Assembly (NCBI GenBank): GCA_017656165.1
Contig: JACDOL010000015.1
Span: forward strand, 1 to 36,797
Direction: 5' to 3'
Origin: Desulfotomaculum sp.
GTDB lineage: Bacteria; Bacillota; Desulfotomaculia; Desulfotomaculales; Desulfohalotomaculaceae
Length of the DNA stretch: 36,797 nucleotides
Shown: positions 1-2,582 of the stretch, in pieces
Position numbering within the stretch: position 1 is the stretch's first letter
How the letters are laid out: each line of letters opens with the position of its first letter
Translations under genes and position numbers: made by a program
The notes under the pieces: generated by a model
The model's database searches: none
What the model was told of the DNA's origin: nothing
The model's input: the letters and a program-made list of their open reading frames with translations, nothing else

Positions 1-2158
1 TCAGCCAGCGTGATGGGTCATGTGTCACTTCCTGCGCCAGTATTAAGCCTAAAACATATTTTAGGAAATATGCATAAGGACAAGAAGCTAGGGTTTCAAT
101 TCTGCTGCAGGACATTATAATATCCTTGTTTCGACGGGGGTCCAGTTCCCCATTTACTGCAGGAATGAGGCCATCATACTCGGTAGGTTGGTCACTTTTT
201 CTGGCCGCTGCAGCTTGAAGCCCCCGTTGTATGCCTTTATAGCATTCCGCCACAACTTCCCTTCCATTAATTGCCTGCTGGTTAAGGATTTTATTTATCC
301 ACCATTCTGTTTCATCAAGAGCGGGTTTGCCCTCCTGCGGGCAGTATGATGCCGGGTTGCCCAAGAATTTTATTAAATGTGAATAATCCAAGCTGATGTC
401 ATTATTTATTAACCGGTAAACCTGCAATAAAATATTTGACGGGAAATTATCCCTGTTTTCCGCCACATCAAATGAAGAGCAGCTTAATACCAAGTTACCT
501 CTTCTAGATGCAATGGCTTGAATCATTGTATTCATATTATCTTTAGGTTTATCTGCCCCCAGGGGCAATTTGCCATTTATTTTTAGCTTTTCAGCATCAA
601 GTAAAACAGGAGACTGCACGCCGCTGCCTGGAAAGGCTGCGGCATTTAAACCCACAATAAAAGTGTTACTGCGGGCAGACCACAGCAGGTTATTATATTT
701 TACCAGGTGTAAATGCCCCGGCTTGGAAGCTGAAGGCGCTACACTATAACCAGAAAGCAGTCCTTCTACCCTTTCCAGGGCTTCTTTCAACTCTATTTCA
801 AACGCAGCCCATTTACCGGTTTGATTAAGAAGTTCAACTATTCCTTCCAGCGCTGCTGCATCTTTTTCATCCGCTTTAATATTAACTATTTCCACCATGA
901 CATCAGAAAGGCTGCTGGTCAGCTGCCTGAAGTCAACCCTGTTCATATCATCTGGAACAGGTATAGCCTCCAGCAGTTGCTGCATGAATAGATGTAGATA
1001 TTTTGCATCATTGCTTAATGCCCGGTATTTGCTTCTTTGCCCTTCTGTTTCCGTCTCTTGATTAGCCTTATCTTTATAATCTTGGGCTAATGATTTTAGC
1101 AGATTGTAACGTTCCCTTCCCCATCCTATCCCTGAATTCCGCAGTAAACGTGCAGCCATGTAACCGGGTAATTCTTTTTTTCTGCCTTTACATTTAACTT
1201 TCACGTCTCCACTGATTAACAAGTCCACCAGCACTGCAGCAGAATAATCTTGTTTTATCCATTGCAATATTGCTTTTAACACTCTACCCGGGCTTGTAAA
1301 TGCAACAGGTATGCCTTCAGCAATTGTTAGATTAAATCCCAAACGCTTGGAAAGAGAATACAGGGCAGGTATGTATTCATCATTGGTATATGCAATGGTT
1401 ACATCGTCCAAGGGAGTACCTGCTTGCTGAACACGCCTGATTATTTCTTTTAACTCGTTATTTATTCCATAGGCATGAAACATGGAAACAGAGCAGCATG
1501 GGTGGATTTCCTGCAGTGAGTCGATATTTACTTTTATTAACTTACCTTGTGAAAGCAGTTCAATTAACTGGTGTTCAACAGGGGTTAAGTTTAGAAAAGA
1601 TGGCAAGATAATTATTTTTTCGTTTTTAGAAGTATTTAATTTAGGTGCAGCTTTAACAGCTAAACTAACTAAGCCAGGAGGGTCAATATATTTATATTCG
1701 TTTAGATAGTTTTCAAATTCTCTTAATATAAGTACCAAGTCTTGTCCTTTTTGTATGTCTACAAAGTCATTTTCATTTAAGGCAGCACTGGTTATTCCAC
1801 AGTGCCGCAGTTCTAAAATTGCATCAGCAATTGAATTTACCAAGCCGGCAGTAACTTTTTTGTCCTTAAAATACCGGAGGGAATTATTCTCATTCAATTT
1901 ACGAAATATATTTTCTAGTGCTGCGGCAGTTAATGTACTCGTTAATAAAGTAATGTTTTGCTGTAGCAAGTATTGTTCAGTTATTCGTTGAGCAAGGCCG
2001 GTAGTTGTTTCACTGTAAAGATTTGCCCATCCTCCGTTATACTTTGTTAAAGCTCGGCATAATTCGTGCCCGGCAATATATGAAGGTACAATAACTATCT
2101 TTTCCTGCACAGGATGTTGTTCACATATATCGGCTAGTGAAGAGAGAAGAATGTTCAT
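1..2158 (-). CDS. AddB-like PD-(D/E)XK nuclease/inactivated-helicase protein, partial (3' end off the window)
   Basis: An uninterrupted minus-strand frame runs from an ATG at 2158 (preceded by GGAG with good spacing) to the left edge, giving 719 residues without a stop. The N-terminus lacks a Walker A P-loop and reads as the degenerate helicase half of AddB/RexB-type proteins. A segment SMFHAYGINNELKEIIRR near residues 236-253 is the conserved block that opens the second helicase-like half. Near residues 684-697 the motif SCSRIETLASCPYAYF, with Cys693, matches the start of the C-terminal PD-(D/E)XK nuclease and its Fe-S cysteine. The catalytic part would lie beyond the window. The family processes double-strand DNA ends with an AddA/UvrD-type helicase partner. 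That partner is not visible; it could lie to the left. The gene starts only 45 bp from the last CRISPR repeat, in the same orientation. Confidence 0.85.
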   Translation of the reverse strand, partial: MNILLSSLADICEQHPVQEKIVIVPSYIAGHELCRALTKYNGGWANLYSETTTGLAQRITEQYLLQQNITLLTSTLTAAALENIFRKLNENNSLRYFKDKKVTAGLVNSIADAILELRHCGITSAALNENDFVDIQKGQDLVLILREFENYLNEYKYIDPPGLVSLAVKAAPKLNTSKNEKIIILPSFLNLTPVEHQLIELLSQGKLIKVNIDSLQEIHPCCSVSMFHAYGINNELKEIIRRVQQAGTPLDDVTIAYTNDEYIPALYSLSKRLGFNLTIAEGIPVAFTSPGRVLKAILQWIKQDYSAAVLVDLLISGDVKVKCKGRKKELPGYMAARLLRNSGIGWGRERYNLLKSLAQDYKDKANQETETEGQRSKYRALSNDAKYLHLFMQQLLEAIPVPDDMNRVDFRQLTSSLSDVMVEIVNIKADEKDAAALEGIVELLNQTGKWAAFEIELKEALERVEGLLSGYSVAPSASKPGHLHLVKYNNLLWSARSNTFIVGLNAAAFPGSGVQSPVLLDAEKLKINGKLPLGADKPKDNMNTMIQAIASRRGNLVLSCSSFDVAENRDNFPSNILLQVYRLINNDISLDYSHLIKFLGNPASYCPQEGKPALDETEWWINKILNQQAINGREVVAECYKGIQRGLQAAAARKSDQPTEYDGLIPAVNGELDPRRNKDIIMSCSRIETLASCPYAYFLKYVLGLILAQEVTHDPSRWL

Positions 2159-2175
2159 TTTTTACTCCTACCATT

Positions 2176-2205
2176 AACAAAAATTAAAACCCACGCAGGG
2201 GTTTT
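2176..2205 (-). terminator. Rho-independent terminator at the end of the CRISPR array
   Basis: Read on the minus strand, a 7-bp stem AAAACCC/GGGTTTT (2199-2205 with 2186-2192) encloses a 6-nt loop and is followed by AATTTTTGTT. It lies between the terminal CRISPR repeat and the AddB-like start codon. It directly abuts the degenerate end of the last repeat. It should stop the crRNA precursor, leaving the nuclease gene dependent on read-through or on a promoter I cannot see. Confidence 0.6.
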
Positions 2206-2392
2206 ATGTATTCCCAGGGGGAATTATTTTTGTTTTAAGTTATTAAAAGTTAAAGCTGCTATGAATGACAGGACTATTACGTTTCAATTCCCAGGGGGAA
2301 TTATTTTTGTTTTAAGTTAATTATGATGACGGTAACGGTACAGCAGACATTGATTTGTTTCAATTCCCAGGGGGAATTATTTTTGTTTTAAG
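2204..2392 (-). CRISPR. Mini CRISPR array: three 36-bp repeats, two spacers
   Basis: Two identical 36-bp repeats (2281-2316, 2357-2392) and a third with a diverged end (2204-2239) are separated by unrelated spacers of 41 bp (2240-2280) and 40 bp (2317-2356). On the minus strand the repeat begins CTTAAAAC and ends ATTGAAAC, the usual 3' handle of type I/III repeats. It contains the 7-bp dyad AATTCCC/GGGAATT. The repeat whose 3' handle is lost (2204-2210) is therefore the terminal one, and the leader is at higher coordinates. Orientation, degeneracy and the leader promoter all agree on minus-strand transcription. No cas gene is seen within the window, so the array is an orphan here or is served by cas genes elsewhere. 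Confidence 0.93.
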
Positions 2393-2407
2393 GGCGTGCC
2401 CTAGAAG

Positions 2408-2582
2408 CCTTGTGCCCCAAGGGCTGAAAACCGGATTTTCGAGCATCAGCATTTTTAATCCTACCTTTTACCATTTTACACCAATATTTAAAACTTGTAA
2501 ACCCTGAAACCCTTGATTTTAAAGGGTTTTTAAAATTCGAGCATCCCCGGGGTTTTGTGCACACCAGCGATGCTCGAATTTT
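2408..2582 (-). repeat. CRISPR leader with three nested dyads and a repeated 10-mer
   Basis: The leader holds three inverted repeats. CCTTG/CAAGG spans 2408-2422, next to the first repeat. AAACCCTT/AAGGGTTT (2507-2514 and 2522-2529) sits just upstream of the -35. A perfect 14-bp stem AAAATTCGAGCATC/GATGCTCGAATTTT (2532-2545 and 2569-2582) has a 23-nt loop that itself contains CCCGGG and GTGCAC. The 10-mer TTCGAGCATC also recurs at 2438-2447. Such dyads could be sites for integration factors or other leader-binding proteins; that role is inferred. Confidence 0.6.
2473..2501 (-). promoter_or_regulatory. CRISPR leader promoter
   Basis: On the minus strand TTTACA (2496-2501) and TAAAAT (2473-2478) are separated by exactly 17 bp, a near-consensus housekeeping promoter. 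Transcription would begin near 2466, about 74 nt before the first repeat at 2392. Nothing else nearby on this strand needs a promoter except the array and the AddB-like gene beyond it. Confidence 0.7.

Follow-up and report, generated by a model that had tools for sequence, protein, structure and literature searches.

In the genome of a Desulfotomaculum sp., a minimal CRISPR array lies directly upstream of an AddB-like nuclease gene with no cas genes in view, which raises two questions: whether the array is an orphan, and whether its position ties it to the nuclease. The window, that is, the whole stretch of DNA analyzed here, is 36,797 nt long and corresponds to the entire contig C15, which ends inside addB.

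Anatomy of the array and its leader

The array consists of three 36-nt repeats at a spacing of 76-77 nt, which enclose two spacers, and it carries a promoter-bearing leader at one end. The features of this region, together with the remainder of the addB-like gene on contig C65, are as follows.

2-2158, minus strand: addB-like gene, N-terminal 719 aa (ADDB_N, 1.9e-11; PDDEXK_1, 8.3e-05)
2185-2206, minus strand: hairpin resembling an intrinsic terminator, following the degenerate last repeat (-8.5 kcal/mol, z -1.98)
2204-2239, minus strand: terminal degenerate CRISPR repeat, 89% identical to the other two repeats
2240-2280, minus strand: spacer B, 41 nt, no protospacer found
2281-2316, minus strand: CRISPR repeat, CTTAAAACAAAAATAATTCCCCCTGGGAATTGAAAC on the crRNA strand (Rfam CRISPR-DR63, 37.9 bits)
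2317-2356, minus strand: spacer A, 40 nt, no convincing protospacer found
2357-2392, minus strand: leader-proximal CRISPR repeat (Rfam CRISPR-DR63)
2393-2582, minus strand: CRISPR leader, ~190 bp, homologous to 10 other leaders, most of which adjoin arrays
2473-2501, minus strand: array promoter TTTACA-17-TAAAAT, sigma-70-type, hexamers conserved among 11 leaders
2438-2447, 2536-2545 and 2569-2578, minus strand: three TCGAGCATC/GATGCTCGA leader motifs (3 seen against 0.02 expected)
C65, L006:10146-10862, minus strand: addB-like gene, C-terminal 238 aa, 57% identical to the AddB of G037

Both intact repeats matched CRISPR-DR63 on the minus strand with scores above the gathering cut-off, indicating that the crRNA strand is also the addB strand. 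The addB start (2158) lies 45 bp past the last repeat, and the hairpin, which overlaps the degenerate repeat and is weak, leaves only 27 nt between its stem and this start. In the interval from the array to addB, no sigma-70-like site with at least 9 of 12 matches was detected, while the array promoter hexamers, TTTAC(A/T) and TGTAA(A/T)AT, are kept in 11/11 aligned leaders. These data uphold the first-pass annotation in its description of a two-spacer array that has its own promoter, ends in a degenerate repeat joined to a terminator, and stands 45 bp before the start codon of a same-strand gene with no visible promoter of its own; its naming of that gene as AddB-like agrees with the matches to ADDB_N and the start of PDDEXK_1.

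The TCGAGCATC motifs of the leader, two of which form a large inverted repeat, are conserved in the 11 leaders and are likely bound by a protein. Searches of phage records and viral contigs gave no convincing protospacer for either spacer; a ~22-nt match to spacer A was rejected because the sequence diverges beyond it.

The cas genes beyond the contig end

The array had been called an orphan, no cas genes being visible, and this claim has to be withdrawn. The absence is only apparent, since the contig ends inside addB. The window repeat, with one change, recurs once more, at the end of C65 and beside the same leader, and leader plus repeat of the two contigs are 96% identical over 225 bp. From this leader inward, C65 encodes, all on the minus strand, cas3, cas5, cas7, cas8b, cas6, an addA-like gene and the C-terminal part of an AddB. 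The Cas8b was identified by PADLOC (6.8e-14) and, with a DevR-family Cas7, Cas5, Cas3 and Cas6, makes up a type I-B effector. The two AddB parts align to residues 13-732 and 771-1006 of one AddB from the same genus (G037), both with 57% identity, from which ~38 aa (~112 nt) would be missing at the contig break. We infer that the locus runs on one strand across the join as leader1-array1-addB-addA-cas6-cas8b-cas7-cas5-cas3-leader2-array2; the basis of the join is the complementary gene halves, the contigs having nine bases in common and no overlapping assembly. An orphan array would have cognate cas genes neither nearby nor elsewhere in the genome, whereas here C65 carries, after addBA, a complete type I-B interference operon. 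The locus is thus a clear case of an apparent orphan array that fronts a full interference operon hidden by a contig break.

Cas1, Cas2 and Cas4 are missing from this locus: neither a Cas4/Cas1 fusion nor Cas2 was found on C65, where the leader comes directly after cas3. Interference-only type I-B loci exist, and we therefore limit the type I-B assignment to the effector part. The only cas1 of the genome (99.9% complete) resides in a separate, complete type I-B operon on contig C59. This second operon (L007:193-8835) has the order cas6-8-7-5-3-4-1-2; the array repeat was not found on C59, and no RAMP (type III) genes were found in the host genome. As the C65 locus is devoid of adaptation genes, the two-spacer array has probably stopped growing, except if proteins from C59 act on it.

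The C65 operon resembles the type I-B loci of Desulfofundulus thermobenzoicus, Desulfotomaculum copahuensis and related Bacillota MAGs (L090-L097), whose Cas8 proteins are 35-52% identical and which share the order of Cas8, Cas7, Cas5 and Cas6, followed by cas3 where the contig reaches; the repeats of the Desulfofundulus locus are also similar to those of the window array. Different from C65, these loci have no addBA, and in most of them, where the contig reaches, cas3 is followed by a Cas4/Cas1 fusion (matching the Cas4g/Cas1g model) or by cas4 and cas1 as separate genes, with cas2 and an array behind.

The AddBA pair and its relation to the array

The C-terminal half of AddB contains the nuclease motif GKIDRI...DYKT and the Cys motif CNTCDYPGVC, so that together with the ADDB_N match of the N-terminal part the AddB fold, nuclease motif and Fe-S cysteines are all represented, and AddA has a Walker A motif, a DYKT nuclease motif and the Pfam domains of an SF1 helicase with a PD-(D/E)XK nuclease. 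The best solved relative of AddA is PDB 3u44 (7.6e-58), and the pair shares UvrD helicase and PD-(D/E)XK nuclease domains with Bacillus subtilis AddAB (PDB 3u44/3u4q). Unlike Gram-positive AddA and AddB, however, the two proteins score well below the NCBIfam equivalog cut-offs (330.9 vs 707.65 bits for AddA, and 42.9 vs 903.7 bits for AddB, a partial protein), as do the G037 proteins; we therefore regard the pair as a divergent AddAB and call it AddAB-like. Its gene order and overlap are those of the stand-alone addB-addA pairs of the order (e.g. G037, G112, G105), to which it is 57-60% (G037) to ~45-55% identical, but these pairs adjoin neither a CRISPR array nor recognised cas genes. Immediately 3' of addA lies another terminator-like hairpin, ~160 nt upstream of the true cas6 start (judged from relatives and an AGGAGG site), so that addBA is bounded on both sides by such hairpins.

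A link between array and nuclease that is conserved in relatives did not emerge, and by the condition for refutation named in the first-pass annotation, absence of an array at the corresponding place in relatives, the link fails. Neither a CRISPR array nor cas genes recognisable by BLAST, which could miss those very unlike the references, were found beside addB at any of 20 loci inspected across the order and phylum, and addBA was absent from all eight loci with a relative of this Cas8, drawn from ~85,000 species genomes. CRISPR-linked AddAB is therefore not a recurrent neighbourhood in independent genomes by either count. A class-level AddB search covered the same genome set as the order-level one and added nothing, and plasmids gave one distant AddB match only. 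The similarity of the DNA to the G037 locus starts inside the addB start and ends near the end of addA, and no description of addAB inside a cas locus was found in the open-licence literature. Together, these data suggest that the nuclease probably came to adjoin the array by chance, in an arrangement observed in this genome alone. At L082, a CRISPR-like signal beside addBA proved to be a 42-bp tandem repeat and not an array.

Alternatively, AddBA could be a functional partner that degrades the DNA ends left by Cas3 or phage infection and thereby supplies pre-spacers or finishes target destruction, being co-expressed with the crRNA by read-through. The same-strand arrangement, the 45-bp gap that is free of a promoter, the weak hairpin and the intact nuclease, helicase and Cys motifs all fit such a role. 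AddAB and RecBCD are listed among the host factors that act in spacer capture (PMC11127173), and in G035 a pair of AdnAB-like genes stands beside another cassette. Nevertheless, we consider the partnership unlikely: the array-addBA pairing is not conserved, pre-spacers would find no Cas1-Cas2 in the locus to take them up, addA and cas6 have a terminator between them as well, and a second end-processing pair is encoded on contig C94. The stronger proposal, in which an AddAB-type machine was recruited into an adaptation-less CRISPR-Cas locus and read-through from the array promoter past a built-in attenuator raises crRNA output and DNA-end degradation together, seems to us decidedly improbable. 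The terminator is weak at -8.5 kcal/mol, yet degenerate repeat and terminator also occur together on same-family arrays in two other genera. If true, such coupling would tie a CRISPR array genetically to an end-resection nuclease of the kind known as a spacer-capture host factor. In Proteobacteria, the co-occurrence of AddAB with CRISPR subtypes is non-random (PMC6452273).

The C94 pair (L112:505-6532) has helicase and nuclease domains arranged like AdnAB, in a Bacillota genome, and is ~80% identical to one in G038, while G037 has the AddAB type alone; one survey reported AdnAB solely from Actinobacteria (PMC6452273). The AdnAB-like pair of G035 (L117:3742-9811 on G035:C7) consists of tandem UvrD helicase and PD-(D/E)XK nuclease genes encoding 1037 and 989 aa. 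It is located directly upstream of a same-family CRISPR leader, between the WYL and cas4-cas1 modules, a flanking position that could hint at more than chance.

A leader family ahead of varied genes

The leader with its first repeat belongs to a family that has copies on C65 (96% identity to C65:1-225) and C114 (79%) of the same genome and in three other genera, G041, G035 and G034 (70-75%). In the multi-array type III loci of these genera, leaders homologous to that of the window, with the same promoter and GATGCTCGA motifs, head short arrays that lie upstream of, and co-oriented with, gene modules, as in the window. The modules differ, however, being csm/cmr, cas4-cas1, WYL and CCA-transferase-like genes, and G035 has the AdnAB-like pair instead of addBA. 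In G035, 4/4 arrays are directly upstream of and co-oriented with a module (WYL, CCA-transferase-like, cas10 and cas4-cas1). Arrays in G035 and G041 end in a degenerate repeat and a hairpin, one of the G035 hairpins having been read by eye because it falls outside the loop limit of the scan, and several same-family arrays have varied genes starting directly after such a repeat and terminator. The family thus recurs in Desulfotomaculales as short cassettes ahead of varied gene modules, and the array before addB is one example of a cassette found ahead of unrelated genes.

Further details of these cassettes were noted. The four short arrays of G035 (G035:C7:105000-140000; L116, L117) have near-identical leaders on one strand and alternate with WYL, CCA-transferase-like/radical SAM, type III-A csm and cas4-cas1-cas2 modules. 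On C114 (L114:1527-3160), a two-spacer array with a related leader lies beside a PA0069-like radical-SAM gene, a pairing also present in G035, the two radical-SAM genes being 75% identical. At ~3650-3690 of L114, a truncated repeat-leader fragment is followed by apparent transposon sequence.

Since the same leader family stands ahead of varied genes and relatives do not share the AddBA link, the reading that fits the array best is that of one of at least two autonomous leader/short-array/terminator cassettes of an adaptation-less type I-B locus, with AddBA as a neighbour by rearrangement; we put the probability of this reading at about 0.72. The second of the two possibilities first raised, that the array merely landed in the 5' region of the nuclease gene, fits best with the 0/20 related addB loci that have an array. 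According to this proposal, a type I-B locus would have kept its interference genes cas6-cas8b-cas7-cas5-cas3 and lost its adaptation genes, and the accessory AddBA helicase-nuclease pair would have come to lie between array 1 and cas6, most likely by rearrangement of a mosaic locus. The leader promoter would drive a short pre-crRNA, most transcripts ending at the hairpin, and the C65 Cas6 would process it for the C65 effector; with no cognate Cas1 encoded, the two-spacer array would be frozen, and the neighbouring AddBA would serve DNA-end processing in its own right. Because no addB promoter is visible after the terminator, the array promoter may still be needed for addB expression. In G035, too, the WYL and CCA-like genes begin just past array hairpins, suggesting that genes downstream of arrays may generally be fed by array promoters.

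Two further explanations were weighed against the cassette reading. First, C15 and C65 may not be adjacent, the addB halves coming from two copies or strains and the array standing alone beside a broken addB, as the short shared end sequence and the missing ~112 nt would allow; we regard this as very improbable, as this AddB family is represented in the genome by a single N-half and a single matching C-half, equally similar to the same relative, the addB-addA order is as in relatives and the two leaders are nearly identical. Second, the array might make regulatory crRNA-like RNAs with which Cascade would be guided to control the transcription of addBA or the cas genes, in the manner of cas autorepression or of CreTA, which employs one or two ectopic repeats (PMC9458426), and short arrays ahead of operons, the degenerate terminal repeat and the type I-B effector in the locus would agree with this, but it is scarcely plausible given that no spacer-like seed matches a nearby promoter, the first 9-11 nt of each spacer being unmatched in the local leader or operon start, that 9-mer matches elsewhere are at chance level only, and that array ends commonly bear degenerate last repeats.

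As a minor observation on the contig ends inside addB, the 9-mer TCAGCCAGC is shared by positions 1-9 of the window and L006:10855-10863 despite the missing stretch, possibly reflecting a deletion variant in the population.
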